Assembly (NCBI GenBank): GCA_017531385.1
Contig: JAFXLD010000062.1
Location: forward strand, 1 to 40,878
Reading direction: 5' to 3'
Origin: Clostridia bacterium
Lineage (GTDB): Bacteria > Bacillota > Clostridia > Oscillospirales > Acutalibacteraceae
DNA: 40,878 nucleotides
Part shown: in pieces, positions 1 to 18,006 of the stretch
Numbering within the stretch: position 1 is the stretch's first letter
Layout: each line of letters starts with the position of its first letter
Program-made: the position numbers and the translations under genes
Notes under the pieces: generated by a model
The model's input: only the letters and a program-made list of their open reading frames with translations
Databases searched by the model: none
Told to the model about the DNA's origin: nothing

Positions 1-89
1 AAGGGTAAAATCGTGTGAAATCGTATAAAGGGATAAGGTGAGCAGATTGCGAAAAACCCTTTATTTTCAAGGCTTTTAGAGGAATTCAT
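1..89 (-). CDS. Partial ORF running off the left edge
   Basis: An open frame starts with ATG at position 89 (minus strand) and stays open for 29 codons to the window edge. AGGG lies 5 nt upstream of the ATG. It sits downstream of the promoter in repeat R1, as every other gene of the left-hand array sits downstream of its own repeat, so it may be the next cassette gene. The visible peptide is not recognised. The region also holds a short tandem repeat (aaatcgtgtg/aaatcgtata, positions 7-26), which is unexpected in coding sequence. It may be non-coding. Confidence 0.25.
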   Translation of the reverse strand, partial: MNSSKSLENKGFFAICSPYPFIRFHTILP

Positions 90-134
90 TAACGCCCTAC
101 AATAAGCGATAATGATTTAAGAAAAGTTAGTTTT

Positions 135-258
135 CAAATTCTTATTTATCGAATTGATTATACCACACTCACAGAACAAAATTCAATCTGTCGGCAGACA
201 AAAAAACTGCCCTCAAAAGAGAGCAGTAAAAATGTTCAGTTTGCAAAATCGGAATTTA
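135..258 (-). repeat. Intergenic repeat R1 (terminator plus promoter cassette)
   Basis: First of five ~120-bp repeats. Read on the minus strand it starts TAAATTCC, carries a terminator hairpin (ACTGC-CTCTC arm, TTTT loop region, GAGGGCAGT) with a run of seven T, then a sigma-A promoter (TTGAAT at 181-186, 18-nt spacer, TATAAT at 157-162), and ends GAATTTG. The ends form an imperfect ~12-bp inverted repeat. R1 belongs with R5 to a subtype carrying TGTCTGCNGACA beside the -35. It terminates the beta-helix gene and should drive transcription leftwards out of the window. Confidence 0.85.
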
Positions 259-264
259 TCTTTA

Positions 265-1539
265 TCATTTCATAAAGCATATTCTTATCGGATGCTTTGG
301 GCTTGTTTGTATTGTGTTTTCGTTAAAAACAACATTTTCTGTATTTATCTCAACCTCGGGATAAATGATTTTATCTGCTTTTGGTACGGTATCAAAACAA
401 AGCTTTGAGTTTTTGAAATCTATATTTTTCAGTGTTATATTTGCAGTCGGATAATTTGAATGAAGCAAAATATCAACATCATTTTCTAAAATGATATTCT
501 CGAGAGTGATTTCACTTTGAGGAACGCACACACAACCGGGATAAAAACTTCGTGCATAGGTGTCATAATTAAGACTTATCGCAATTCCTATGTTACGCTT
601 TTTCTGAAGTGAGAAATTTCGTATTATAATGTTGCGACAACCGCAGTCAAATTCTTCCGTATCGCGCACAGCAACCCAATTTATACCGTCATATTCCATA
701 ATTCCTTTTTCGTGGCAAGGCGGTGTATAGGAAGTGTAAAGCTTTCCGTCTTTCGGATTCATCAGAACACGGTATGTTTTACCGTTAACCGCAACGGTGT
801 CCGAGTGCTGAACCTGCATCCCCTTTTGCCATCTGCACCAGGCACCGCCAAGAATCCTGCAGAAAAAGCCGGTTGTTGAGTTATCGTCCAGGTCAATACA
901 GTTTTCGATTATTCCGTTTTCAATCCAACCTATATGCGTGTTTGAGGTTGCATAATCAAAGGCGTTGAGTGCTATCGGGTCATCGAATGTACGGAACCTA
1001 CCGTTGCTGATAACAAATCCGTCGCCCCACCCCAGATGAACACCGTCTTTATTTCCTGTTATAAATAAATCGTTAAGAATAATGTTTTTAAATGCACTTA
1101 CCTGAATTGCGTAATCCTTTTCAAGCAATCCGTGACACTCAAACCCGTCAATTGTTAAATTTTCAACACAAATCATTGCAACCTGTGCACGTAATCCGGC
1201 AATCCGACTGTTCACACCAAAGTCATTGCTTTCGATACCGTTACATTCAAGATGCAATCCGATAATTTCAATGTTACAGTTATATTCACCCTTAAGTGCA
1301 CCTTTATTAATGAAAGCATTACCGTTGATGCCGCTAACACTTGCTTCGCGCCTGAGAATCACACCTTCACCGAATACAAGTTTTGTATTATCACCGATTT
1401 CAATCTGCTCGGAAAATTCATAAACACCGGGAACAGTAACCTGAATTACTCCTCCCTTATCAACTGCTTTTTGAAAAACTTCGGAATTTTTATATGGGTT
1501 GTTTTCAGGCAAAAAACCATATTCGTTAGCATTAATCAT
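265..1539 (-). CDS. Right-handed beta-helix protein, GH28/pectate-lyase-like
   Basis: A 424-aa protein made of repeated short beta-strand units (patterns such as ENLTIDGFECHG and KNIILNDLFITG), the signature of a right-handed parallel beta-helix. Near residues 162-170 it has GNKDGVHLG and at 186-192 DDPIALN, which resemble the NTDG and DD catalytic blocks of GH28 polygalacturonases, though the GH28 GHG and RIK motifs are not clear. Likely role: hydrolysis or lysis of a pectin-like or other acidic polysaccharide. There is no signal peptide, so it would act in the cytoplasm or leave by another route. Start: ATG at 1539 was chosen over ATG at 1548 because AGGG (CAGGGATG) is well spaced only for the former. 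The gene lies between repeats R1 and R2 as a single-gene cassette. Family confident, substrate unknown. Confidence 0.75.
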   Translation of the reverse strand: MINANEYGFLPENNPYKNSEVFQKAVDKGGVIQVTVPGVYEFSEQIEIGDNTKLVFGEGVILRREASVSGINGNAFINKGALKGEYNCNIEIIGLHLECNGIESNDFGVNSRIAGLRAQVAMICVENLTIDGFECHGLLEKDYAIQVSAFKNIILNDLFITGNKDGVHLGWGDGFVISNGRFRTFDDPIALNAFDYATSNTHIGWIENGIIENCIDLDDNSTTGFFCRILGGAWCRWQKGMQVQHSDTVAVNGKTYRVLMNPKDGKLYTSYTPPCHEKGIMEYDGINWVAVRDTEEFDCGCRNIIIRNFSLQKKRNIGIAISLNYDTYARSFYPGCVCVPQSEITLENIILENDVDILLHSNYPTANITLKNIDFKNSKLCFDTVPKADKIIYPEVEINTENVVFNENTIQTSPKHPIRICFMK

Positions 1540-1553
1540 AGCTTTCATCCCTG

Positions 1554-1672
1554 CAAATTCTTAATTGTTGAGATTATTATATCATATCTGAATCATAGAA
1601 TTCAATCTTCAGAAACAAAAACTGCCCTCGCAAGAGAGCAGTAAAAATGTTCAGTTCGACAAATTGGGATTT
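1554..1672 (-). repeat. Intergenic repeat R2 (terminator plus promoter cassette)
   Basis: Second copy of the repeat. Minus-strand order: AAATCCCAATTTG end, terminator hairpin with GCGAGGGCAGTTTTTG, promoter TTGAAT (1600-1605), 18-nt spacer, TATAAT (1576-1581), GAATTTG end. It belongs to the inner subtype (R2-R4). Its left end overlaps the GH16 gene and supplies that gene's last seven codons and stop. It drives the beta-helix gene. Confidence 0.88.
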
Positions 1673-2727
1673 GTTGTTCTGTACAAAGCGGGTATCATAC
1701 TGAATAAACACTCAAAGAACTGATGACACTGCGGACAGAAGTCTTGGAAAAAAGATAAAATACGTTGCCAGAATGCAATGAACGAGTCGCACATATCTTT
1801 TATAAAACGCTCAAATTCTGTAAGTCTGTTGTTCTCGTCATAACCGTTTTTATCTTTGTATACACGGACATAATCAATAAGCCATTCTATAGGATAGACA
1901 TTATCAGGTTCATCCCAACCGCTGAAATCAGAATTGATATACATAGACAGAATCATACACATTCTGTATTGGGGTGATTCTATGGTCTTAGCCACTTCTT
2001 TTCCGTCCACATAAAATGTTATCCCTTCAGGTCTCCAGTCCATAGCATAGGTGTGGAATTCGTTTACATAATCCATCGGGGTGCCATCCAATTCAACTTT
2101 GCTTGCCCATTCGCCAAGCTCGGGGTCATCCCATGCGTGAACCTTGGGTTCAAATACTCCCGGAGATTTAAAAAAGGTTTCAAATACATCTATTTCACCA
2201 TTTTGCTGAGAACCTGTTCCGTCAGGACGGGCATCATCCTGAGCGCCTATAAGCCACCACGCTGCATATCCGCCACCCTTGGTGTCCGGCATTTTCATTC
2301 GTATCTCAAAGTAGCCGTACTGTGTTGCATATCCTTCATAAGGCTCAACTTCCATCTGCTGACTACCGCCCGGATGCAGATGATTCTTTTCCCATGTCTG
2401 AATACCGTTGGCTATCCATAAAAGGTTATCGGAATCTGCCGAGCCGGGCTGACCGCCGAAATAATCAGGTGAATCTTTTGTGATAAACAGATTCAGATAA
2501 CCATTCTCAATTTTATACCTTGCAGAGGAGCCTTCTGTGTTGGTAGTACAGTGAGGCAGATATTGTGGTAACCAGTATTCTGTATTTAAATTGCCATCAT
2601 TAAATTCGGTGCTGAAATCAAGTACATAACCTTCTTTTTCAGGAACGCTGTCTTCGGCAGATGCTCCTAACGGCAAGCCGACCAGCATAGTTAAAACGAG
2701 CAACAAAGCCATACTTTTTTTGAACAT
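1651..2727 (-). CDS. Secreted GH16 family beta-glucanase
   Basis: A 358-aa glycoside hydrolase family 16 enzyme (endo-beta-1,3(4)-glucanase, laminarinase or related). Residues 1-24 are a signal peptide ending ASA. The catalytic motif GEIDVFETF is at 177-185, with E178 as expected nucleophile and E183 as acid/base. Other family marks are YFEIRMKMP (139-147) and the late DYVRVYK strand. After the catalytic domain (to about residue 290) comes a tail of about 60 residues rich in Phe/Trp (FIAFWQRILSFFQDF, then QFFECLFSMI) that is not part of GH16 and resembles the C-terminal tails of two other secreted proteins in this window. The last seven residues are encoded inside repeat R2. GAAAGGAT precedes ATG 2727. 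Single-gene cassette between R2 and R3. Confidence 0.92.
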   Translation of the reverse strand: MFKKSMALLLVLTMLVGLPLGASAEDSVPEKEGYVLDFSTEFNDGNLNTEYWLPQYLPHCTTNTEGSSARYKIENGYLNLFITKDSPDYFGGQPGSADSDNLLWIANGIQTWEKNHLHPGGSQQMEVEPYEGYATQYGYFEIRMKMPDTKGGGYAAWWLIGAQDDARPDGTGSQQNGEIDVFETFFKSPGVFEPKVHAWDDPELGEWASKVELDGTPMDYVNEFHTYAMDWRPEGITFYVDGKEVAKTIESPQYRMCMILSMYINSDFSGWDEPDNVYPIEWLIDYVRVYKDKNGYDENNRLTEFERFIKDMCDSFIAFWQRILSFFQDFCPQCHQFFECLFSMIPALYRTTNPNLSN

Positions 2728-2746
2728 AGTTGTTTATCCTTTCGTA

Positions 2747-2865
2747 CAAATTCTTATTTGTTGAGATTATTATATCATATCTGAATCACAGAATTCAATC
2801 TCCCGAAACAAAAAACTGCCCTCTTAAAAGAGCAGTTAAGAATCTGTTCTACAAATTGGAATTTA
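2747..2865 (-). repeat. Intergenic repeat R3 (terminator plus promoter cassette)
   Basis: Third copy, inner subtype, almost identical to R4. It contains an ACTGCTCTTTTAAGAGGGCAGT hairpin (a 20-odd-base stem-loop at about 2816-2837) followed by T6 on the minus strand, then TTGAAT-N18-TATAAT. GAGATT just before the -35 and AATCTC just after the -10 form a dyad around the promoter. It terminates the 56-aa peptide gene and drives GH16. Confidence 0.88.
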
Positions 2866-2891
2866 CTTTTCAATCTTTTTCTTTATAGATT

Positions 2892-3062
2892 TTATTGAGT
2901 TGGTTTATCAGTGCAACCTTTTGAGATATATCCAGCAACAACAATAATCAAGCCGATAATCGCAATTAAATCTGGCAGGAAACCATCTTCCATAAACAAA
3001 TGAAAAACAATCACAGCCAACATAATGGCTATTCCTAATAACATTTTCTTGATTTCTTTCAT
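2892..3062 (-). CDS. Small two-helix membrane protein (56 aa)
   Basis: The minus strand from ATG 3062 encodes 56 residues beginning MKEIKKMLLGIAIM and ending KGCTDKPTQ. Two hydrophobic stretches (about residues 7-23 and 30-46) are separated by an acidic turn (MEDGFLPD), predicting a small double-pass membrane protein with a charged N terminus. A strong ribosome binding site (GGAGGT) lies 10 nt before the ATG. The gene is flanked on both sides by the near-identical repeats R3 and R4, so it has its own promoter and terminator, which argues that it is real despite its size. No family recognised. It could be a membrane regulator, a toxin-like peptide or an immunity-type protein; nothing in the sequence decides. 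Confidence 0.75.
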   Translation of the reverse strand: MKEIKKMLLGIAIMLAVIVFHLFMEDGFLPDLIAIIGLIIVVAGYISKGCTDKPTQ

Positions 3063-3079
3063 ATTAGTTATACCTCCGT

Positions 3080-3200
3080 CAAATTCTTATTTGTCGAGAT
3101 TATTATATCATATCTGAATCACAGAATTCAATCTCCCGAAACAAAAAACTGCCCTCTTAAGAGAGCAGTAAAAATGTTCAGTTCGGCAAATTGGAATTTA
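3080..3200 (-). repeat. Intergenic repeat R4 (terminator plus promoter cassette)
   Basis: Fourth copy, inner subtype. The terminator stem TGCTCTC/GAGGGCA with a TTAA loop and T6 is followed by TTGAAT-N18-TATAAT and the GAATTTG end. Ends TAAATTCCAATT and (inverted) CAAATTCTTATT match at 9 of 12 positions. It terminates the FAD oxidoreductase gene, whose stop lies 8 nt before the repeat, and drives the 56-aa peptide. Confidence 0.88.
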
Positions 3201-3208
3201 ATCAATAC

Positions 3209-4468
3209 TTATATTCCTATAATTTCTCTGATTTCTTTTGCATCAACATCATTCAGACTGCAATTGAGTGAAACGGAGATGTATGCCGCAACACCTGCAG
3301 CCTCACCGATGCCTACACAGATAGGCATAACCCTGAAATTTGAATGTGCCATATGTGTACCCGAAATATTTCTGCCGCAAAGCAGAAGATTTTCTTTGAT
3401 TTCGGGAAGAAGGCAACGGTAAGGAATCGTGTATCCTTTTTCCTGAGAAAAATGTTTCTGTACTCCCGTTTTATCCAAGCCTGCACCCGTAATATTATGC
3501 ACATCAAAATTGAAGTAAGCATCTTTTACAACATAATCATCAAAGACTTTCGCTTCGAGAATATCCTGCTCATTCAAGGTGTATTTACCTTTGAAATGTC
3601 TTGTTTCACGGATGCCCATAAGGGATGCGGAGCTGATAACATAACAATTTTCGTAACCGGGAACAAATTCACGCAGATATTTAACTATGTCATCCATCTG
3701 TCTGCGGCATGCAAGAGTGGCACATGTCAGGTCGTCTGCATTTGTGCCGTCAATATCGATTGCATTTGTCATATTACATGTCACAACACCGGGGAGGGTT
3801 GATTCATAAGTGAGAATATGCCCCGCAGGATAAGGTATGTGTTCTTTTGCAAGAGCCTGAAGTTCACCGTTCGGTGTTTCATAGGTTGATTCAAATGAAC
3901 CTAAAAATACTGCCCGGTCATAGTCAACACCGCCGACTTTGAACATAATGGTTGCAGGCTGCATTTTGTTATCGCTTTCTCTGCCGAGAACAAATTCTGC
4001 TCCTGCTCTTGCGGCAATATCCCCGTCACCCGTAGCATCAATAGTGATTCCGGCATAAATATCTGTTTTGCCCGATTTGTTGATAACGGTTGCACCGAGA
4101 ATTTTATCTCCGTCGCAGATTGCATCCTCAGCAAAAGTATAAAGCATAACCTTGCAACCTACCTCGCAAAGCATTTCAAGATAAAGTGTTTTCAGCTTTT
4201 CGGGGTCTATCAGGTTGGTGATTTTGTTTTTGAATTCACCTTCATTATTTTCGGATGTTCTTTTCAGAATTTCATAATACAAAGGGCTTGCGCAGCTGCC
4301 TGTCCAATGGCTCATAAGACCTGAAGTTGAAATTCCGCCAACATCTCCGCTTTGCTCAACAAGAATTACCTTCGCACCGTTTTTTGCAGCAGTATATGCC
4401 GCTGCAAATCCGGCAGGACCGCTTCCGAGAACAAGAACATCGGTATGTATTTCAAACTTTTCAATCAT
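3209..4468 (-). CDS. FAD-dependent oxidoreductase (FAD_oxidored family)
   Basis: A 419-aa flavoprotein. The N-terminal Rossmann motif VLGSGPAGFAAAY binds FAD, followed by VEQSGDVGGISTSG, typical of the FAD_oxidored (PF12831-type) family. A second FAD segment, IDATGDGDIAARAGAEF, lies near the middle, and the C-terminal block LLLCGRNISGTHMAHSN closes the FAD site. Members are often near carbohydrate-utilisation genes and are thought to oxidise sugar-derived or related small molecules; the substrate is not readable here. Start: ATG 4468 preferred over GTG 4477 because GGGG sits 8 nt before the ATG. Cytoplasmic, no signal peptide. Single-gene cassette between R4 and R5. Confidence 0.88.
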   Translation of the reverse strand: MIEKFEIHTDVLVLGSGPAGFAAAYTAAKNGAKVILVEQSGDVGGISTSGLMSHWTGSCASPLYYEILKRTSENNEGEFKNKITNLIDPEKLKTLYLEMLCEVGCKVMLYTFAEDAICDGDKILGATVINKSGKTDIYAGITIDATGDGDIAARAGAEFVLGRESDNKMQPATIMFKVGGVDYDRAVFLGSFESTYETPNGELQALAKEHIPYPAGHILTYESTLPGVVTCNMTNAIDIDGTNADDLTCATLACRRQMDDIVKYLREFVPGYENCYVISSASLMGIRETRHFKGKYTLNEQDILEAKVFDDYVVKDAYFNFDVHNITGAGLDKTGVQKHFSQEKGYTIPYRCLLPEIKENLLLCGRNISGTHMAHSNFRVMPICVGIGEAAGVAAYISVSLNCSLNDVDAKEIREIIGI

Positions 4469-4482
4469 ATTTGACACCCCAA

Positions 4483-4604
4483 CAAATTCTGTTTATCAAC
4501 CTGATTATATCATACCTGCAGTACAAATTTCAATCTGTCTGCAGACAAAAAAACTGCCCTCGCAAGAGAGCAGTAAAATGTTCAGTTTGGTAAATCGGAA
4601 TTTA
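4483..4604 (-). repeat. Intergenic repeat R5 (terminator plus promoter cassette)
   Basis: Fifth and last copy. It shares with R1 the segment TGTCTGCAGACA just before the -35 (a perfect 12-bp palindrome here), where R2-R4 have TGTTTCGGGAG or similar. Terminator hairpin with GCGAGGGCAGT and T7, then TTGAA-containing -35 and TATAAT. It terminates the broken hypothetical gene and drives the FAD oxidoreductase. No further copy was seen from 4.6 to 40.9 kb. Confidence 0.87.
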
Positions 4605-4628
4605 CTTGCATACAAGAATTTACGAATT

Positions 4629-5021
4629 TCATTCCTGTTCTAAATAGGTTAATTTTCCCCAATGCCATTTCTTGTTTTTATCAAAATGATATTTATCGGG
4701 TTCGCCCATATAAAAGACACCATCACCGAGTATACCAAATAGATGTTTTTTCAAAACAAGAATGTTTCCTTTTTTACCGATGGAATACAATTCATCAAAC
4801 ATATCTTCTTCATCAGGGTGCCAATGAGTTAAAGAATCAACAAACGCAGAGTTGCTGATTATATCAATGCATGTATCATAGCTATCACAATAAGCACGAA
4901 CAAAAGCATTTTTATATAATTTTCAAATTAGAATTTCACCATCTAATTCAGGTTCAGAATGCAAATCGGGCATTTCAAGAAGTTTTTCATATAATTCTTT
5001 TGTATTTTTTGAATTTCTCAC
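4629..5021 (-). pseudogene. Hypothetical gene with an in-frame TGA at codon 33
   Basis: From GTG 5021 (AAGGA 10 nt upstream) the frame reads MRNSKNTKELYEKLLEMP and on to codon 32, then meets TGA at 4923-4925, and continues open for 97 more codons to TGA at 4629. The downstream part is protein-like (HWHPDEEDMFDEL, FGILGDGVFYMGEPD, KKWHWGKLTYLEQE), acidic and aromatic. A single TGG to TGA change would explain the break. No good start with a ribosome site follows the stop, so the product is probably lost or reduced to 32 residues. Family not recognised. It has a promoter of its own (TTTACT-N17-TATAAT, 5042-5070) and R5 as terminator, so it looks like a decayed member of the cassette array. Confidence 0.6.
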
Positions 5022-5142
5022 AAAATCATCATCCTTAATTTATTATATCATACCAATACCAAAAAGTAAATCTACACAGTATAAATCCCCTTGTTTAACA
5101 AATACTAACGAAGCAAACGAAAGAATAAGGAGATAGATATAT

Positions 5143-5682
5143 ATGAAAGCAACAGGAATCGTAAGAAGGATTGACGACCTCGGCAGAGTCGTTATTCCTA
5201 AAGAAATCCGCCGTACAATGCGCATCCGTGAGGGTGATCCGTTGGAAATTTATACAGATGCGGACGGCGAAGTAATTTTCAAAAAATATTCACCCATGGG
5301 TGAGATGTCGGAATTCACTTCTCAGTATGCAGAAGTACTTTACAGAGCAACCAATATGCCCGTAATCATCACAGACCGTGACCATGTAATTTCATGCACA
5401 GGTCTTTCCAAGAAAGAAACCATCGACCGTCACATCACAAAGGAGCTTGAGGAAATCATGGAAAACCGTTCAAGCTTTGTAGCAGGCAATGATAAGGGCG
5501 TTCTGATGCCCGTTGACGGACTTGACCGCAATGCTGCTATTGCATACCCCATTGTGGGCGGTGGTGATGTTTCGGGTGCTGTTATTCTTCTTTTTAACGA
5601 AAGCGGAACAGCTCCCACACAGGCTGAAATCAAGCTGGCACAGGTTGCAGCATCATTCCTCGGCAAACAGACTGAAGAATAA
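5143..5682 (+). CDS. spoVT: Stage V sporulation protein T, AbrB-type regulator
   Basis: A 179-aa protein, the usual SpoVT length. Residues 1-50 are a swapped-hairpin AbrB DNA-binding domain (MKATGIVRRIDDLGRVVIPK, EIRRTMRIREGDPLEIY), and residues about 55-178 form the GAF-like domain of SpoVT (QYAEVLYRATNMPVIITD, AAIAYPIVGGGDVSGAV). SpoVT acts in the forespore as activator and repressor of late sporulation genes. GGAG lies 9 nt before ATG 5143. The gene is monocistronic: it is divergent from the broken gene and ends in a strong terminator at 5693-5725. It shows that the organism belongs to a spore-forming lineage. Confidence 0.95.
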   Translation: MKATGIVRRIDDLGRVVIPKEIRRTMRIREGDPLEIYTDADGEVIFKKYSPMGEMSEFTSQYAEVLYRATNMPVIITDRDHVISCTGLSKKETIDRHITKELEEIMENRSSFVAGNDKGVLMPVDGLDRNAAIAYPIVGGGDVSGAVILLFNESGTAPTQAEIKLAQVAASFLGKQTEE

Positions 5683-5897: not shown

Positions 5898-6935
5898 ATG
5901 AGTTTAACTGAAAAACTCTCTTTTGAATGTGATTACACAACAGGTGCTCATCCTGAAATTCTGAAAAAACTGACCGAAACGAACATTGAATCTTTGCCCG
6001 GTTACGGTGCAGACCGTTACTGTGAAAGTGCAAAAGAAAAAATCAGAAATCTCTGCAATAACGATGTTGAAGTTTTTTTTCTTGTTGGCGGCACACAGAC
6101 AAACTCCATTGTTATCGCATCACTTCTCAATTCATATGAAGGTGTGATTGCCGCAGACACCGGTCATGTCAGCGTTCACGAAGCAGGTGCAATTGAGTAT
6201 ACAGGTCACAAGGTCCTGACACTTCCCCACCATGACGGGAAAATTATGCCGACAGAGCTTTCAGCTTACATGGATAACTTCTATAATGATGAAAACCACG
6301 AGCATATGGTATTTCCCGGAATGGTTTACATATCACATCCCACCGAAAACGGCACTCTTTATACAAAAAATGAACTGAAACAGATTTCGGACATCTGCAG
6401 AATGTATGATATTCCTCTGTTTCTTGACGGTGCAAGACTCGGTTACGGTCTTATGAGCAGAAATACAGATGTTACACTCCCTGATATTGCAGAGTTATGC
6501 GATGTTTTTTATATCGGCGGAACAAAAGTCGGTGCATTGTGCGGTGAGGTTGTTGTCTTTAAAAAATCAGCAACACCGAAGCATTTTATGACAACAGTCA
6601 AACAGCACGGAGCTTTGCTTGCAAAAGGACGATTGCTTGGTGTTCAGTTCGACACTCTGTTTACCGATAATCTATATTTTGAAATCAGCCGACATGCAAT
6701 TGAAATGGCTGAATTTCTCAAAACAGTACTGAAAGAAAAAGGATATCATTTTGCATGGGAATCTTTCACAAATCAGCAATTCGTTATTCTTGAAAATAAA
6801 CAGATGGAAAAACTGAAAGAAAAAGTCAGATTTTCTTTCTGGGAAAAATATGACAACAGCCATACAGTTGTCCGTTTTGCCACAAGCTGGTCAACAAAAA
6901 AAGAGGACATCGAAAAATTAAAAACGATACTGTAA
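5898..6935 (+). CDS. ltaE: Low-specificity L-threonine aldolase (PLP enzyme)
   Basis: A 345-aa fold-type I PLP enzyme of the beta-eliminating lyase/threonine aldolase family, cleaving threonine or allo-threonine to glycine and acetaldehyde. Marks: SFECDYTTGAHPEIL at the N terminus (family FxxDYxxGxHP), the PLP-phosphate segment GGTQTNSIV, LFLDGARLGYG (cofactor-binding Asp about 177) and FYIGGTKVGA with the Schiff-base lysine about 210. Start: ATG 5898, since the longer frame from TTG 5859 overlaps the promoter -10; AGGTG lies just upstream. Single gene, terminated by a bidirectional hairpin shared with the convergent GH3 gene. It could supply glycine, one of the amino acids predicted for the nearby NRPS, but that link is inference. 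Confidence 0.85.
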   Translation: MSLTEKLSFECDYTTGAHPEILKKLTETNIESLPGYGADRYCESAKEKIRNLCNNDVEVFFLVGGTQTNSIVIASLLNSYEGVIAADTGHVSVHEAGAIEYTGHKVLTLPHHDGKIMPTELSAYMDNFYNDENHEHMVFPGMVYISHPTENGTLYTKNELKQISDICRMYDIPLFLDGARLGYGLMSRNTDVTLPDIAELCDVFYIGGTKVGALCGEVVVFKKSATPKHFMTTVKQHGALLAKGRLLGVQFDTLFTDNLYFEISRHAIEMAEFLKTVLKEKGYHFAWESFTNQQFVILENKQMEKLKEKVRFSFWEKYDNSHTVVRFATSWSTKKEDIEKLKTIL

Positions 6936-6945
6936 TGTATAATAA

Positions 6946-6976
6946 AAGCCCGTATTAAAAAATACGAGCTTTTTTC
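6946..6976. terminator. Bidirectional terminator between aldolase and GH3
   Basis: Stem aagc.cgtatt / aatacg.gctt with one mismatch and an AAAA loop, flanked by A and T runs, so it can act on both strands. It lies between convergent gene ends. Confidence 0.85.
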
Positions 6977-6981
6977 ATTAT

Positions 6982-9402
6982 TCAGGATTTCTTTATTCTG
7001 AGAATGAACTTGATAACATTAAGAGCACTGCGCTGTGCTTCTGCTAATGTGACACCACCTGCAGATTTCATTGACGGAATCAGTGAACGAGCATCAGGAT
7101 CGCCTTTTTTGCCGAATTCACCGGGCATAAGAACATCAACCTGAGCACGTACACGGTAAGCGTCATTTTTAATGTTTGGAAATTCTCTTGAAGCTCCTGC
7201 TCTCATCCACCAGTCTGTGATTATAAGACCCTTGTAGCCCCATTCCTGTCTTAAAATCTGTGTAACAAGCTCATAGTTATAATGACTCCATACGCCGTTT
7301 ATCTTATTATAGCTTGTCATAATGGAATACGGATTTGCTTCTTTGACGGCAATCTCAAAACCTTTCAGATAAATCTCACGCAGAGCACGTTCGCTGAGTC
7401 TTGAATCGTTATAGTTACGGTTGGTTTCCTGATTGTTGCAGGCAAAATGCTTCGGACAGGCTGATCTGCCTGTTTTCTGTATACCACGGATTGCAGCCGC
7501 GGCAATTTTGCCCGAAAGGAACGGATCTTCCGAAAAATATTCAAAGTTTCTTCCGCACAAGGGATTTCTGTGAATATTCATACCCGGTGCCAGAAGCATA
7601 TGAACATCAAAATTCGCCATTTCTTCGCTTACAAGAGAATACAACTGCTCGATACCTTCGGTATTGAATGAGCTTGCAAGTGCAGTTCCGCAAGGAAGGA
7701 GACTTACCGTTCTGCGGATTCTGATACCCGACGGACCGTCTGTTGTTATCATTGCGGGAATACCTCTGCTGCGGAGTTTCTCGGTCACACCACCGAATGC
7801 ACCTGCATTCCCGTTGATACCGTAAGATGAGTTCATCTTGCCTTCGCCGTGTGTCAGGTCGTCGAGTTCTTCAGGTGAAAGCTGAGCAACAAATTCTTCC
7901 GCTGTATATTTACCGCTGATGACATCATCAAATGTTATATCTTTTTCTGTGCACTTCAGTTCTTCGGGAAGCTCTTCAAGAATCTGTTTTTTCAGATCTT
8001 TTGTTGCAGTGGGAACATCAGCAAAATTAATTACACCGTTCTTGTTAACCAGTCTTTTAAATGAATTTTCGGGTCTGACTGCCAATGTTTCACGCAGTTC
8101 TTTTGCCACTTCGGTTTCTGCTTTTTCAATTGTCAGAACACGGGTTGTTTCACGGACATCTGTTCCGACTTCAACACCGTAAACACCTGCTTCAAGCACA
8201 TGGCAGGACTTGTGACCCGTCATACCGCTGTCATCATAAGGTGCAAAGTCAGCAAGATTGATTTTCATGGTCAGAGTCTGATTTTCACTCGGTGCAAGAG
8301 TTTCTGTTTTTGCAAAAGCTGCAAGAATTTTTGCGGGATTGCCAAGTTTTCCGCAAGGGAGATTCAGATAGCACTGAACAACCTGTTTACCTGCATAAGC
8401 TCCTGTATTTGTCACCTGTGTCTGAATTGTGATTTCGTTTCCGATGTTTTCACACTCTGTTTTCAGTTCAAAATCGGTATAGCTTAAACCGAAACCGAAG
8501 GGATACAGAACTTTGTCTTTGCTGAATGTTTCAAAATAACGGTAACCCACATATATATCTTCCGAATATGTATTAAATTTTTTACCGCCGAAATGTTCAT
8601 TGCCGGGATATGCTTCATAGTTCACGGCAATTGTATCTGTAAGTTTTCCGCTGGGTGAGACTTTGCCTGTGAGCACATCTGCCAGAGCATAGCCGCTTTC
8701 CATACCGCCCTGCCATGCATAAACTATTGCGCTGATTCTATCACCGTAACGCACAGTCCAGCTCATGTCAATGATATTTCCGCAGTCAAGAATTACACAA
8801 ACTCTTGTAAAATGCCGTGTCACAAGATCAAGCATTTTAATTTCTCTGTCTGTCAGGTAGTAACTGCCCTTTTTCAGTAGATTTTCTCTGTCCTCACCTG
8901 CTGCTCTGCCGATAACAACAAGTGCAATATCAGAATTTTTTGCGACATCACTGACTGTTTTTTCGCTGAGAGGCATTTCGGGATAGCTCATTGGCCAATG
9001 TCCCCAGAAACCCTCATCGGGAACATTTTTCTTATTGTGGCACCATGCATCATAAACCGAAGCAAGATTTTCTTCAATTTTCACTTCATTAGCTCTTAAG
9101 CCATCCATAAGACTTGATTTATACGGAGGAATAACATCACCGCCGCTGCCGTATCCGACAGTAAAATAATCAACGGCAGTTCTGCCGAAAACAGCAACCG
9201 TATCTTCTGCACGTACAGGCAAAGTTTTGTTGTCATTTTTAAGAAGCACAATACCCTCTGCTGCCATCTGTCTTGCAACCGGGACAATTCCCGGAACTGT
9301 CAGTTCGCTTGTGATTTCCGACTGATTAAGCTCCTGTTCAAGCCCTGTTGCACCGAATGTTTTTATAAAAAAACGAACACATTTATTAATTATTCTGTTC
9401 AT
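6982..9402 (-). CDS. GH3 beta-glucosidase with permuted domain order
   Basis: An 806-aa family 3 glycoside hydrolase. Most GH3 enzymes begin with the TIM barrel. Here the alpha/beta sandwich and fibronectin-like parts come first (GIVLLKNDNKTLPV about residues 50-63, YPFGFGLSYTDFEL about 300, then QVVQCYLNLP), and the barrel comes last (MITTDGPSGIRI, PGMNIHRNPLCGRNFEYFSE, CPKHFACNNQE, GLIITDWW with the nucleophile Asp about 730). This BA order is known for beta-glucosidases of Ruminococcus albus and Butyrivibrio fibrisolvens. No signal peptide, so it probably cleaves imported oligosaccharides in the cytoplasm. GAGG precedes ATG 9402. It starts 22 nt after the PPTase gene and is probably co-transcribed with it. 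Confidence 0.93.
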   Translation of the reverse strand: MNRIINKCVRFFIKTFGATGLEQELNQSEITSELTVPGIVPVARQMAAEGIVLLKNDNKTLPVRAEDTVAVFGRTAVDYFTVGYGSGGDVIPPYKSSLMDGLRANEVKIEENLASVYDAWCHNKKNVPDEGFWGHWPMSYPEMPLSEKTVSDVAKNSDIALVVIGRAAGEDRENLLKKGSYYLTDREIKMLDLVTRHFTRVCVILDCGNIIDMSWTVRYGDRISAIVYAWQGGMESGYALADVLTGKVSPSGKLTDTIAVNYEAYPGNEHFGGKKFNTYSEDIYVGYRYFETFSKDKVLYPFGFGLSYTDFELKTECENIGNEITIQTQVTNTGAYAGKQVVQCYLNLPCGKLGNPAKILAAFAKTETLAPSENQTLTMKINLADFAPYDDSGMTGHKSCHVLEAGVYGVEVGTDVRETTRVLTIEKAETEVAKELRETLAVRPENSFKRLVNKNGVINFADVPTATKDLKKQILEELPEELKCTEKDITFDDVISGKYTAEEFVAQLSPEELDDLTHGEGKMNSSYGINGNAGAFGGVTEKLRSRGIPAMITTDGPSGIRIRRTVSLLPCGTALASSFNTEGIEQLYSLVSEEMANFDVHMLLAPGMNIHRNPLCGRNFEYFSEDPFLSGKIAAAAIRGIQKTGRSACPKHFACNNQETNRNYNDSRLSERALREIYLKGFEIAVKEANPYSIMTSYNKINGVWSHYNYELVTQILRQEWGYKGLIITDWWMRAGASREFPNIKNDAYRVRAQVDVLMPGEFGKKGDPDARSLIPSMKSAGGVTLAEAQRSALNVIKFILRIKKS

Positions 9403-11030: not shown

Positions 11031-14000
11031 ATTTACTTATGACTGACAATATTATTTCTGCAAGCTCATTGCTGTTATCCGACTGGAAATAATGGGTCTT
11101 TGTATCTATAAAATGCACTCCGCAGACATTCTCTGCGTAAAGACTCCACAGTCTTCCGGCATCAGTAAAGTTCTCGGTAAACAAGTCGTCTTTACTTATT
11201 ACAACCGAAACAGGGCACGGAACTTTATTTCTTTCTTTATAGAAACACTCTGTCATAAAGTCGGTATCTTTTCGGAAATTCATAACCATATCCGAAATCT
11301 GTTCGTCTGAAAAGCTTCCGAAAGGTGCACCGGCTTTAATAAGCACATTTACAAGCATTTCATCTGATACGGTATTCCAGAAATTGTCTTTCTCAGGTTT
11401 TTCGGGTGGAATACTTGCACCTGCAACATAGTGTTCTACTATCCCATTCTGCATTTCTTCAAGAATGTTGATTACCTGCATTGCAGCCGCAGAACCTGCA
11501 CAGTGGGAATAAACATAAAGCTTACGCACTTTTGCAATTTCGTACAGTTCTTTTGCAACATTTTCACATTCTGCGTATGAACGCGGATAATCAAAAAAGT
11601 AAAGCGAATATTCTGCCGTTCTGTCTGACAATGATTTTGAAAGAGCCGCAAAAGCTTCTGCACCACCACCTGCATAGGGAATAAAAACAAGAGCTTTTTT
11701 GCTGTTCTCAATGTCTTTCAACATTCTGATATAACTGAATTCACTGATTTTTTCTTCATTCATAAGTCTTGCAAGTTTTGAAGGAGTGGGATTTGCGATA
11801 AAATCAGCAGCGGAAATATCCTTGAATTTGTCTTCCGACAACAATGCTATCATTGAAAGGCTTGTACCGCCAAGCTCGAAGAAATCGCTGTTTCTGCCTA
11901 TCATTCCAACACTCAGAATTCTGCCGAAAACTTCCGCGATATAGCTTTCTGTATCATTTTCAGGTGCTTCGTATTCATCAGTGTTGCTTTCAATTATTTC
12001 GATTGCGGAAAGTGCTTTTCTGTCAAGTTTACCGCTGGGATTAAGCGGCAGTTTGTCAAGCTGACAAAAAGCACCGGGAACCATATATGAAGGCAATTCC
12101 TTTTCGCATATATCTCTGATAGTTTTCTCATCGGTGTCTTTACCGCACCAGAATGCAGCAAGAATATCCCTGCCGTTATTTTTTCTCAGGATAACAGCAA
12201 CGGACTCAATACCGTCTATATTGCCTATAACGCTTTCGATTTCACCGATTTCTATACGCTGACCGTTAAGTTTTATCTGGTTATCCATTCTTCCGCAGAA
12301 AATAATTTCACCGTCTTCACGGATATAGGCATTATCACCTGTTCTGTAAATTCTTCCGTCACCAAAAGGATTGGTCAGAAACTTTTCAGCTGTGAGTTCG
12401 GGATTGTTAAGATATCCCTGTCCCACATTCACTCCGCCGATGCAAAGTTCACCAGTAACACCCTGCGGTACACAGTTCATATATTTATCCGTAATATAAA
12501 TCGCTGTGTTATAAATGGGTTTTCCGATGGGCACGGGGTCAACATCATCGGGAGTACAGTCATAATAAGTTACGTCAACAGCACATTCGGTCGGTCCGTA
12601 AAGATTATGAAGTCCTACTTTCTCAGAATCGAACATAGCATAGAATCTTGTCACAAGTGATGCAGAAAGTGCCTCTCCTGACAGGAATACATACTTAGCC
12701 GATGCGAATTTATAACATTCTTCAGGATGCTTTTCGAGATATGTGACAAACAATTCAAATACAGACGGCACAAAATGCAGATGTGTCACACCGTGCATAT
12801 AAACTTCATCAAGAATTTTTGCAGGCAGGAAGTGTTCATCGGGTTTTGACGCAACAAGACTTCCGCCGACCATACCCCACCAGAAAAGTTCCCAGACCGA
12901 AACGTCAAAGGTATACGGTGTTTTCTGAAGAATAACATCCTCAGCACCGAGAGGATAAGCTTCGTGCATCCACAGAATACGGTTGACAGCCGATCTGTGA
13001 CTGACTTTTGCACCTTTCGGTTTACCTGTTGAGCCTGATGTATAAATTACATAGGCTGTGTCATCAGCTTCTGCAGCACAAGGCAATATGTCCGTTTCAG
13101 GTGTATTATTGATAAAATCCGTCATATCAATACAGGCAACATCCCCTGCAAGATGCGTGAATTTATTTTGTGCAACAACCAATGCCGCATTGCTGTTTTT
13201 CAGCATATATTCAATTCTTTCCTGAGGGTAATCAGGAGCTATAGGCATATAAGCATTACCACCGCGGATTATACCGTAAATTCCCGCATACATTTCAACA
13301 CTGCGCTCTGCAATAACGGCAATGATTGATTTTTTACCCTTTGTAACATTTCGGATGCTGCTGTCAAGCGCTTCGGACAATGCTAACAATTCACCGAATG
13401 TTATTGATTTTCCGTTTGCAGTTACACATGTTTTTGATTTCATCCTGCTTGCAGTATCTTCAAACAGGGTGTATACGGTTGACTCTTCGGGAACGTCATA
13501 CATATGCGCCGTATCATTAAAGTCATACAAAACAGTCTGCTTTTCATCCTCTGACATAGCAGTTATGTCTTTTATGAGTGTATTCTCTTCAAGACACTGT
13601 TCAAGGATAAGCTTGAAGCTGTTAATGAATTTCTGTACAGTTTCTTCTTTGTACAGATCTGTGCAATATTCAACTGCTAATACCACATCGTTTTCTCTTG
13701 GCATGACATTGAAATTTATGTCACACTTTGATGTTGTTGTGGATATCGGGAGCAGTTCTGCTTTTTTGTCTCCGAAGTCGATATCCGTCATTTCATAGCT
13801 CTGATATGCCATCATAACATCATACAACGGGTTTCTTCCGTTTGTCTGGATATTTAATTTTTTAACAAGATTATTGAACGGATAATTCTGATTGTCGATT
13901 GCAGAGATTGAATTTTCTTTCACTTCCTGCATGAATTGTGAAATGGTTTTGCTACCTTCCGGTTTACTTCTGAGTGCAACCGTATTTACAAACATTCCCA

Positions 14001-17000
14001 CGGATTCAAGATATTTACTGCTTCTTCCACTTATGGGCATTCCTACAACAATATCCTCATTTCCCGAATATTTTGACAGAAGGATATTGTAGCATGTCAT
14101 GTAGAATACATACGGTGTTATATTCAGTTCTTTGCACTTGTCCGTTATCTTATCATGCAGTTTTTTATCGATACGGTCATAAAGAATTGTTCCTGTGAAT
14201 GACTGTGCCTGATTTCTCGGATAATCTGACGGCAATTCAAGCTCAGGTATTTCATCGCTGAATATATCGAGCCAATATTTTTCACTTTCTTCGATATCTG
14301 TTTCCTGTACTGCAAATTCGCCGTACTGTACAGGTGCTTTTTTTATATTTCTTCCCATATACAGTTCATTCAGTTCTCTGAAGAATATAGGCATGGTTTC
14401 ACCGTCAGCTATGATATGGTGTATATCTATCATAACCGTGTTTTTGTAATATCCTGCTCTCAGCAGTGGGGCTTTTGTCAGATCAAAGGCTTTGATAAAT
14501 TCTTGTGTGTTGTCATTTTCAAGTTTCTGAAGCTTAATTTCTGCTTTTTCTTCAATTATCTGTACTATCTGACCTGCTTTGTTCTCAAAGCGAGTTTTTA
14601 ACGCTTCATGTCTTTCAATGAGCTTGTTCAATGCAGTTTCAAGCTTTTCTGCATCGAGTTCTTCTACTCTGAACACATTCGGAATATTATAAAGCGGTGT
14701 TTCAGGGCTCATAAACTGTGCTGTATATACCCGCATCTGAGCCGGTGTTGCGGGAATGATATTGCCGTATTCGATATTAATATTTTCTGCTTCTTTTTCA
14801 TCAAGTTTTTCTGCAAGTTCTCTGATATCCTTGCATGAGAAGATAGTTTTAACGGGTACGGTGTATCCTTTTTCTTCGAGCTTTGCTGTCAGTTCGATTG
14901 CTTTAAGACTGTCACCGCCGATATCGAAGAAATTATCAAGTATGCTGATTTTTTCGGTGTCGAGAACACTCCGGATACACTCTGTCAGCAGTATTTCTTT
15001 TTCTGTTTCGGGTGCGATGTATTCTGTTTCTGTACTGATATTCTCAAGATCGATTCCGGGCAGTGCATTTCTGTTTATCTTACCGCTTGATGTGAGGGGT
15101 ATTTCGTCAAGGTGAGTAAAAACATGGGGAATCATATATTTCGGAAGCTTTTCGCTGATTTCTGCCTTGATTTCTTTTGCTGCTTTCTCTGTTCCTGTGT
15201 AGAATGCGCAGATAAGCTGTCGGTCTGTTTTGTCTTTTCTGACGACTACAACACTGTGAACGATGCCGTCAACTTCGGCAATTGCATTTTCGATTTCACC
15301 GAGCTCTATTCTCTGTCCTCGGATTTTTACCTGGAAGTCATTTCTTCCGATAAAGACAATATTTCCGTCTGCTTTTCTGTATGCAAGGTCGCCTGTTCTG
15401 TAAATTTTTCCGTCACCAAACGGGTTATCAATAAATTTTTCCTGAGTGAGTTCTTCTCTGTTCAGATAGCCGTTTGCTACACAGTCACCCGCAATGCAAA
15501 GCTCTCCTGTTACCCCTACGGGCACAAGTTTCATGTATTTATCCACTATGTGTATCTGTGTATTTGCCATAGGCTTTCCTATGGTTATGTCTTGGGAATC
15601 TTCAATTTTTGCGTATGTTACCCATACGGTAGCTTCTGTGGGACCGTAGATGTTGTAGATTTCTGCATCTGTGACATTTTTAAGCTCAGTTACAAGTGAT
15701 GTGTCGAGTGCTTCACCACCGAGGATGATTGCTTTAAATTTTTTCAGATAATCAAGCTGTGTCTTGTCCGTCATCAGGGACTTCATCTTTGTGGGAGTTG
15801 TCTGGATGATATCGGCAGGAGAAGAAGAAAGCAAATCAATCAGCTTGCTTTGGATTCTTGCCTGTTCTTCATTTGCAAGAACAATTTCCATACCGTTTGC
15901 AAGAGGCAGAAGTGTTTCTGTTACAAATATATCAAATCCTGCTGTTGTGACTGACAATATACTTGTGCAATTCTTTGTTATGCCGAAGTGAACATTTTTC
16001 TCATTTCTACTTACATAATTCACCACATTTCTGTGGGTGAGAAGAGTGCCTTTCGGCTTGCCTGTTGAGCCTGATGTGTAGATACAATAGCATATATCTG
16101 AATTATCAATTGCAATTTTCGGGTTTTCTGTGTTTTCGTTTTTCAGAAGTTCAGATACATTTTCATCAGTGATGCAATATTTTGCACCGCTGTCTGTGAG
16201 CATATATCCTATTCTGTCTTCGGGGTAATCGGGGTCTATGGGAAGATATGCCGCACCTGTTTTGAAAATACCCAGCATCGATGCAACAAGAGCCACTTTT
16301 CTTGACAGTCTGAATGCAACAATGTCATCTTTACCTATACCTTTTTCGATAAGACTGTGAGCGATTCTGTTTGATTCTTCGTTCAGCTCTTTGTATGTGA
16401 GCTTCTTATAGCAACCTGTGATTGCTGTTTTTTCAGGCACTTTTTCTGACTGTTCTTCAAACAATTCGTGTACACACTTTTTGCTTTCATATTCTATGGC
16501 AGTATCGTTGAAAGAACAAAGCAGTTGTTTATGTTCATCAGATAACATTTCAAGGTCATAAATAATTTTTTCAGGGTTTCCTGCGGCATCTTCTGCAATA
16601 GCGAATATTGAATCCAGCATAATGCGGATGTCTTTTTCGTTGAAATATGCTGTTCTGTAACGGATTTTCAGATTGTGATTGATTCCATCAAATGTCTGCA
16701 GGTGCATTTCGATGGGAACGGAAAGATTGTTGCCGTAAGGGATTCTCATTTCATATTCTTCATTGTGAGAAAATTCCTGATAATCGGAAACAACATCAAA
16801 AAGCTGATTTACTGAAATTTTATTTTCAGTAAGAAGTGCCTTTATATCCTGCTGTGTAAAACTCTGATGTCTGAAAAGATTCATTTTTGAATCTTCTATT
16901 CTTTTCGCATTTTCTATGAATGAAGCTTCCGTTATATTTATAACAAGCGGTACAAGATGCATATACAGACCGATTGTGTTCAGTTCGTCGGCAGTTGTAC

Positions 17001-17781: not shown

Positions 17782-17839
17782 TTCAGACGCTCCCTGAAGG
17801 TGGTATTTTTTGCATACAAACTACCCATTATAATAAATA

Positions 17840-17868
17840 ATTATATATTTATTTATAGATAAAGTCAA
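17840..17868 (-). promoter_or_regulatory. Promoter of the NRPS gene
   Basis: On the minus strand TTGACT (17863-17868), 17-nt spacer, TATAAT (17840-17845), about 60 nt before the start codon. A second TATAAT at 17828-17833 lacks a good -35. Confidence 0.7.
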
Positions 17869-17927
17869 GAATAAAGATATTACCTGAAAAATGCTGTATC
17901 ATGAGGACAGATGTATTATCTGAACTC

Positions 17928-17956
17928 TTGTTTTTAGTAAAATCTTGTGGTATAAT
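17928..17956 (+). promoter_or_regulatory. Promoter of the acyl ligase-ACP-HAD operon
   Basis: TTGTTT (17928-17933), 17-nt spacer, TATAAT (17951-17956). It diverges from the NRPS promoter with about 60 bp between the two -35 boxes, so one regulator could control both arms. Confidence 0.7.
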
Positions 17957-18006
17957 AAATAAAAAATTTCGACAACGAGTGAAAAATAAAGAGGTGATTT
18001 TGTCTT

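Follow-up and report, generated by a model that had tools for sequence, protein, structure and literature searches.

Promoterless genes between two kinds of inverted site in gut Clostridia and their phages: a probable gene-cassette exchange system

How do unrelated genes come to be lined up in one direction with nearly the same DNA between each of them? The question is raised by the left end of a stretch of 40,878 nucleotides, here called the window, from a Clostridia bacterium of the family Acutalibacteraceae (GenBank assembly GCA_017531385.1, contig JAFXLD010000062.1). An earlier note, made from the letters alone, described five repeats of about 120 bp between minus-strand genes and proposed a mechanism that adds or shuffles self-contained expression cassettes, each bringing its own promoter. 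The analysis of these repeats and of related loci reported here points to a probable gene-cassette exchange system, in which a promoterless gene lies between two inverted recombination sites of about 20 bp. Loci are designated L, genomes of relatives G and contigs of an assembly C.

The five repeats are real. They lie in one orientation between minus-strand genes and have a mean column identity of 79% over 165 columns, flanks included. A terminator-like hairpin and a promoter-like pair (TTGAAW-N18-TATAAT) are present in all five, always on the minus strand, and the inverted ends are 22-bp elements at the positions given in the earlier note, with the RIGHT end of repeat 5 being one base shorter and below the profile threshold. 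Each repeat consists of a LEFT site, a terminator-promoter segment and a RIGHT site, LEFT and RIGHT being mutually inverted. All five genes described in the earlier note are on the minus strand, but the rightmost one (5021 to 4629) has no intact reading frame. A repeat search detected no additional copy in the remaining 36 kb of the window. No Rfam family matched positions 1-5100 at E 0.1, and a known RNA family was accordingly rejected as the identity of the repeats. The window is contig C24 of a 2.47-Mb assembly of 107 contigs and starts at a contig end, which cuts off the left side of the array 134 bp into a sixth cassette. Elsewhere in the same genome there are three more full copies of the repeat (two on C98 and one on C59) as well as single ends on C12, C19, C89 and C98.

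In relatives, the two ends of the repeat are conserved and the middle between them is not. The RIGHT site, read towards the next gene, has the consensus CAGTTCGAYAAATAAGAATTTG of about 20-22 bp, made up of GTTCGAYAAAT, the centre AA and GAATTTG. The LEFT site, located after the previous gene, has the consensus CAAATTCCAATTTGTCGAACTG, and its centre is TG when read in the sense of RIGHT. The inner arm is conserved over about 7 bp (GAATTTG / CAAATTC). Between the ends lies the 120-bp type of terminator-promoter or a middle of 210-299 bp (G005:C36), compact joints of about 40 bp with almost nothing between the ends occur in L052, L135, L153 and others, and longer joints carry up to about 380 bp between the same ends. 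Elsewhere the ends occur alone around a gene, as RIGHT-gene-LEFT. The repeat of about 120 bp, which had been taken as the unit, is only one form of the joint between cassettes. TATAAT precedes RIGHT in 9 of 16 sites with centre AA, in a set that was not selected for TATAAT. Part of the site set was found with a pattern containing both TATAAT and the centre AA, so promoter and centre frequencies in it are biased; a scan of 295 genomes and the set not selected for TATAAT lack this bias, and the reading of loci covers those that were fetched.

The content of the units was assessed in 80 complete RIGHT-gene-LEFT units, 75 of which hold a forward open reading frame (ORF). In these 75 the ORF fills a median of 94% of the unit, starting a median of 15 bp after RIGHT and stopping a median of 5 bp before LEFT. 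Of the remaining five units, three lack an ORF of 35 amino acids and two have backward ORFs only. In one complete RIGHT-LEFT unit (L157, 7334-7834) the sole long ORF runs backwards and continues through RIGHT; this unit is perhaps inverted or non-coding. Some array units contain two genes. The proteins of the 75 units form 53 clusters, and representatives of 40 of these were scanned against Pfam, giving a match at E 1e-4 for 34, three of them only below the curated cut-off. The families include HTH regulators, methyltransferases, GNAT and CAT acetyltransferases, the glyoxalase fold, the beta-lactamase fold, kinases, EamA, MATE and MFS transporters, nitroreductase, GH78, melibiase, SDR, GrpB, CAAX protease and others.

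What moves was seen by comparing loci that carry the same cassette. Such pairs align about from RIGHT to LEFT, for example with 96% identity over 428 bp (L082/L122) or 97% over 401 bp (L093/L135), and in 9 of 12 cassette groups, compared by eye, only RIGHT-gene-LEFT is shared and both flanks are different. The DNA outside the sites, here called the socket, was clustered separately from the cassettes by ungapped identity of at least 0.8 over 50 bp. The 164 RIGHT sites fall into 100 socket clusters and 127 cassette clusters. Twenty-four socket clusters hold more than one cassette (the largest with 12 members and 12 cassettes, 9 and 9, and 8 and 7), and 21 cassette clusters are found in more than one socket. 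Sockets and cassettes cluster independently, and a promoter travelling with its gene was therefore rejected, the exceptions being L114/L162, window/L106 and L089/L107. The earlier proposal is supported as far as the addition or shuffling of self-contained genes with exact boundaries is concerned, but the cassette is as a rule without a promoter of its own.

The arms of the sites behave accordingly on the outer side. The difference between RIGHT outer arms is 0.132 within a socket cluster and 0.272 within a cassette cluster, at a baseline of 0.336, and that between LEFT outer arms is 0.106, 0.333 and 0.375, respectively; the within-socket value was reached in none of 300 permutations for RIGHT and LEFT alike. 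For the inner LEFT arm the difference is 0.100 for the same cassette, 0.163 for the same socket and 0.139 at baseline, which is not significant. Since the outer arms follow the socket and the inner arms tend to follow the gene, we read the crossover as probably lying in the core between the arms.

Replacement of one cassette by another is seen on two phage contigs from IMG/VR (L329 and L330). Both have the order peptide deformylase gene, RIGHT, gene or genes, LEFT and a terminator-like hairpin (by eye), followed by a gene that matches nothing in Pfam and by two large serine recombinases. The right sides of the two contigs are 99.97% identical over 3,666 bp and the left sides 89.2% over 4,338 bp, with the left alignment ending 1 base past RIGHT and the right alignment beginning 6 bases before LEFT. 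Between the sites, one contig carries a GNAT gene, of which a 75% identical relative is found on a 104-kb contig of a metagenome-assembled genome (MAG; L052), and the other carries a lipoprotein-like gene, a second LEFT, an HTH gene and a small ORF. A separate observation concerns one cassette, with the protein start MKIYDISQEVF and presumably encoding a cyclase-like protein, which is present on IMG/VR contigs L218, L220 and L328 as well as on genome contigs L125 and L072, with differing upstream DNA.

Contig ends are unevenly placed around the sites. Where the same cassette is present in a sample in more than one context, contigs are expected to break off within it, and breaks do favour the cassette interior, with 42 sites within 400 bp inside versus 20 outside. 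At 90-150 bp, a distance near the usual k-mers of assemblers, there are 16 inside versus 3 outside. For this count, contig extents were entered by hand and only for loci touching contig ends.

The centres differ between the two sides of the gene. TG or CG is the centre of 61 of 71 3' sites, and TG that of 10 of 11 in the open-centre set; the centre AA is found in 92 of 97 5' sites, mostly at loci from an AA-based search. With different centres, RIGHT would recombine only with RIGHT and LEFT only with LEFT, and we infer that RIGHT x LEFT recombination, hence inversion, would thereby be prevented. IMG/VR contig L221 (1591-8796) contains six inverted-site pairs with the centre CG on both sides, forming modules at gene boundaries. 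The modules are hairpin-rich and about 160-280 bp long, one of three related middle modules is inverted, and a module identical to one of L221 is present in L327 (1357-1572). With CG on both sides and one inverted module, L221 fits the centre rule from the other side. Owing to its CG centres it was left out of the unit, centre, clustering, target-duplication, tRNA and pairing counts, and the pairing test was also run without L327.

These observations can be combined into a mechanism. The movable unit would usually be one promoterless gene, flanked by RIGHT ahead of its start codon and by LEFT beyond its stop codon. Strands would cross over within the short core of a site, the gene taking the inner arm (GAATTTG / CAAATTC) along and leaving the outer arm behind, together with promoter and terminator, as the socket. 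Given the mostly differing centres (AA versus TG/CG), only RIGHT x RIGHT and LEFT x LEFT would recombine, genes would be swapped in the expressed orientation and arrays would keep one direction. The terminator and promoter between a LEFT and the next RIGHT would be the complementary module, which is seen as the repeat. A trans-acting recombinase would replace or add cassettes, the promoter and terminator staying in place. Presumably one site-specific recombinase carries out the exchange, centre identity sets the choice of partner and the system is active now.

Mobile insertion cassettes and miniature inverted-repeat transposable elements (MITEs) also have a passenger gene between short inverted repeats, and RIGHT-gene-LEFT might be a non-autonomous transposon of this MITE-like kind, with terminal inverted repeats of about 20 bp and a transposase in trans. 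Genes between short inverted repeats are indeed what is found here, no enzyme lies inside those scanned and there are scattered lone copies. Among the 40 scanned cassette proteins there is no transposase, one TetR protein having a sub-threshold match to a transposase HTH, and no search was aimed at a parent transposon with the same ends. However, flanking triplets are equal in 10 of 62 cases versus 8.5 expected by shuffling (P 0.31), so that there is no target duplication, and a transposon with target duplication was rejected on this count. Furthermore, one promoter socket takes many cassettes, the phage pair represents replacement at a fixed socket and not insertion, and the asymmetric centres of RIGHT and LEFT mostly differ. 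A MITE-like origin thus appears unlikely.

Integron cassettes are promoterless single genes of very diverse function, which form tandem arrays of one orientation and are shuffled exactly, and arrays without an integrase exist. The arrays described here are like them in all these respects of cargo, orientation and exactness, and an integron-like effect without recognised attC sites, as the earlier note had it, is upheld. In an integron-type reading, LEFT-middle-RIGHT would be an attC-like site that accompanies the upstream gene and is recombined in its folded, hairpin form. Pairing between the LEFT and RIGHT of a joint is possible (7 bp, a 2x2 mismatch and further pairs), folding is clearly better than that of shuffled sequences for two of five joints, and the compact joints of about 40 bp resemble small attC sites. 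Yet in 9 of 12 cassette groups the gene is not accompanied by the middle, and outer-arm complementarity amounts to 116 of 162 pairs versus 114.6 expected (P 0.38; 18 joints, none of them compact); a folded attC was not supported by this test, which gave no excess LEFT/RIGHT complementarity. The attC R' box consensus GTTRRRY was not found in the site cores, which are GAATTTG / CAAATTC. An integron integrase was rejected as the enzyme, with none of 22 genomes passing the curated cut-off of the IntI-type model TIGR02249 and only weak matches, as in 13 of 14 controls. Unlike in integrons, there is a site on both sides of the gene and a promoter for each slot, and the site does not move whole with the gene. 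We consider an integron-type mechanism highly improbable.

A third possibility is regulatory, LEFT and RIGHT being operators or the complementary 5' and 3' untranslated ends of an mRNA, with genes moving by ordinary homologous recombination from repeat to repeat. RIGHT is located at the expected transcription start after TATAAT in the 9 of 16 AA-centre sites mentioned above, and the repeats within one array are near-identical and could recombine. Against this, cassettes occur in sockets that share only the site of about 20 bp. There is little covariation of cassette ends, and complementary ends of one mRNA were rejected as a constraint, with one of 22 positions reaching P 0.012 and one 0.052. 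In addition, RIGHT overlaps or abuts the end of the preceding gene in L328, L329 and L330, where no promoter is seen by eye, although L218 and L220 have TATAAT there. A regulatory origin is very unlikely.

Returning to site-specific exchange, no recombinase type common to the relatives' arrays was found beside them. A tyrosine recombinase (2530-3492) lies 2.5 kb from RIGHT in L106 and a transposase-like ORF (6594-7724) 0.3 kb from LEFT in L051, neither with anything alike beside the other arrays seen. A serine recombinase is located 1.5 kb from RIGHT in L017, and remnants of large serine recombinases are found beside RIGHT in L052 (632-1099), L163 (92-442) and L172 (4186-4911). Recombinases of nine congeneric genomes were clustered (32 tyrosine and 30 serine proteins, excluding 4 and 21 matches without a locus). 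Two serine recombinase clusters occur only in carriers, each in 3 of 5, and one cluster of tyrosine recombinases of about 325 amino acids, Xer-like by size only, is present in 7 of 9 congeners, among them both carriers and non-carriers. A Firmicutes dif consensus, which may not be that of the host, was found in none of 15 relatives. Most likely, a host Xer-type tyrosine recombinase or a serine recombinase acts in trans.

Several results weigh against the exchange mechanism and its centre rule. The large serine recombinase type of L017 was rejected as the enzyme, with homologues at E 1e-40 in 5 of 32 genomes with an exact site versus 76 of 263 others, as was a recombinase common to all carriers in the genus, with no such type among the clustered proteins. 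No recombinase was found among the 40 scanned cassette proteins. The centre AA is present in only 7 of the 13 5' sites with an open-centre pattern, and 31 LEFT-oriented sites lie just before an ORF and 36 RIGHT-oriented ones just after, cassette neighbours, chance ORFs and exceptions being pooled in these counts. Two of the 12 cassette groups also share the downstream side (L114/L162 and window/L106) and one shares both sides (L089/L107). RIGHT outer arms are somewhat more alike within cassette clusters than by chance (P 0.02), the linkage of inner arms to the cassette is a trend only (permutation P 0.10 for RIGHT and 0.12 for LEFT), and for the RIGHT inner arm it is no stronger than the linkage to the socket (P 0.10). 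We saw no true empty socket, and the named records consist of MAGs rather than same-strain long-read data on exchange.

The locations of the sockets are not random with respect to tRNA genes. RIGHT sites prefer the 3' side of these genes, with a same-strand tRNA gene at most 450 bp upstream in 22 of 143 RIGHT sites and an opposite-strand one in none, compared to 6 and 5, respectively, of 339 control ORFs (Fisher P 5e-8). The count excludes L221, loci fetched for their recombinases and L238, a copy of L089. In L089 the order is tRNA-Gly, terminator-promoter, RIGHT, gene, LEFT, terminator-promoter, a decayed RIGHT and a second gene. The RIGHT outer arm GTTCGAY is the same as the T-loop motif of tRNA genes, and the recombinase is possibly descended from a tRNA-targeting integrase.

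A second location is upstream of spoVT, where arrays with partly overlapping gene sets are found in the window and in G004 and G008 of the same genus. The spoVT locus of G007 has an FAD oxidoreductase gene and two LEFT sites, with no RIGHT over the threshold. Upstream of spoVT in G001, G003, G005, G006 and G009 there are other genes and no site in the 5 to 18 kb fetched, and G002 and G010 gave no spoVT match. The spoVT loci of relatives thus carry different gene sets or none of the array, and not the same genes without repeats, and the copies elsewhere that were looked at sit at gene boundaries. Neither result refutes the cassette idea of the earlier note. A further arrangement is present in G008 (L049, 16160-18757) and G005 (L268 flipped, 15682-18914), where copies of N-terminal pieces of spoVT precede the intact gene. 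Each piece is followed by other genes, of which one is TIR-like by eye. The arrangement gives the impression of a separate hot spot at which insertions enter spoVT and the gene is rebuilt.

Among 295 genomes of the order, 32 (from 21 of 149 genera) contain the pattern GTTCGAYAAATNNGAATTTG, at 46 places, and none contains the reversed control. The window's own genome has only variants of the pattern, and no match was found in 199 genomes across the phylum, of which only one besides this genome belongs to the order. Hosts are MAGs of gut Clostridia and Oscillospiraceae as well as phage contigs of IMG/VR. The 89 named records are MAGs without exception, and the gut of goat, sheep, deer, buffalo or yak is given in 65 of them.

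The features of the window array are listed in the table. The first 110 bp of the sixth cassette recur in different sockets and flanks in L062, from a genome of another family, and L117. Instead of a gene, these 110 bp may represent the end of another mobile element, because they show no ORF and partly resemble dispersed DNA of other gut bacteria and phages. The pectin-lyase-fold cassette has an 83% identical counterpart in L023/L106, with the terminator side in common too. The GH16 cassette is 89.8% identical over 1162 bp to one in L102 with other flanks, and a homologue in L135 sits behind a compact joint. Homologues of the FAD oxidoreductase are found in the G004 array and, as noted above, at the spoVT locus of G007. 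Outside the array, the window contains a 61-bp direct repeat of 74% identity (12994-13054 and 16030-16090).

Table. Joints, cassettes and flanking genes at the left end of the window
Feature	Coordinates	Strand	Details
Sixth cassette, start only	1..134	-	First 110 bp identical to DNA inside RIGHT on L062, L117
Joint 1	135..258	-	RIGHT 135-156, promoter 157-186, terminator 206-227, LEFT 237-258
Pectin-lyase-fold protein, 427 aa	265..1548	-	Pfam matches below curated cut-off
Joint 2	1554..1673	-	RIGHT 1554-1575, promoter 1576-1605, terminator 1621-1642, LEFT 1652-1673
GH16 family protein, 358 aa	1651..2727	-	Cassette gene
Joint 3	2747..2865	-	RIGHT 2747-2768, promoter 2769-2798, terminator 2814-2837, LEFT 2844-2865
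56-aa protein	2892..3062	-	No Pfam match; probable membrane protein by eye
Joint 4	3080..3200	-	RIGHT 3080-3101, promoter 3102-3131, terminator 3148-3169, LEFT 3179-3200
FAD-dependent oxidoreductase (PF12831), 422 aa	3209..4477	-	Cassette gene
Joint 5	4483..4604	-	RIGHT about 4483-4503, promoter 4504-4533, terminator 4553-4574, LEFT 4583-4604
First gene of array, interrupted reading frame	4629..5021	-	Promoter-like pair upstream 5042-5070, no RIGHT site
spoVT/AbrB-like gene, named by eye	5143..5682	+	Flanks array

By analogy, the closest known system would be the Xer-dependent dif modules of Acinetobacter plasmids. These are described as one or a few genes between inversely oriented sites, with two kinds of module in alternation and the two arms of each site belonging to adjacent modules; recombination partners are chosen by the spacer, and the enzyme acts in trans (PMC13141974). 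Compared with that description, the present arrays likewise have alternating, inversely oriented sites that divide two kinds of module. They differ from it in that the sites have no recognised 11+6+11 Xer layout, the two kinds of module are a mostly promoterless gene and a terminator-promoter or short spacer, the 5' and 3' centres differ, which would fix orientation, and the setting is the chromosomes and phages of gut Clostridia instead of plasmids.

In engineered recombinase-mediated cassette exchange, two incompatible sites permit an insert to be replaced in one orientation. The different 5' and 3' site pairs found here are similar, the system being natural in this case. Among titles and abstract openings in the literature, none described these sites or reported integron-like capture of genes for this group. 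The system is filed under none of the integron, transposon and Xer module families, because the sites show no recognised Xer layout, the dif consensus was not found in the 15 relatives and the integrase, duplication and folding tests gave no support. That it represents natural directional exchange through incompatible sites (5' AA, 3' TG), with sockets on the 3' side of tRNA genes, at a chromosomal hot spot beside spoVT and near phage serine-recombinase genes in at least 21 genera of one order, and forms a class of its own beside integrons and Xer modules, is a tentative proposal to which we give slightly less than an even chance.

If the exchange mechanism is true, gut Clostridia and their phages would share a pool of plug-in genes, comprising acetyltransferases, a CAT-like enzyme, a beta-lactamase-fold protein, transporters, methyltransferases, regulators and polysaccharide enzymes. 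New genes would be expressible at once, because most sockets supply a promoter and a terminator. The sites are short and exact, so cassettes could be mined in any metagenome and the missing recombinase could be searched for, and two natural incompatible sites would be a ready tool for directional gene exchange. The repeats look like docking sites at which a shuffling system distinct from integrons would exchange single promoterless genes, in the manner of plug-in cartridges, from one ready promoter slot to another on the chromosomes and phages of many gut bacteria.

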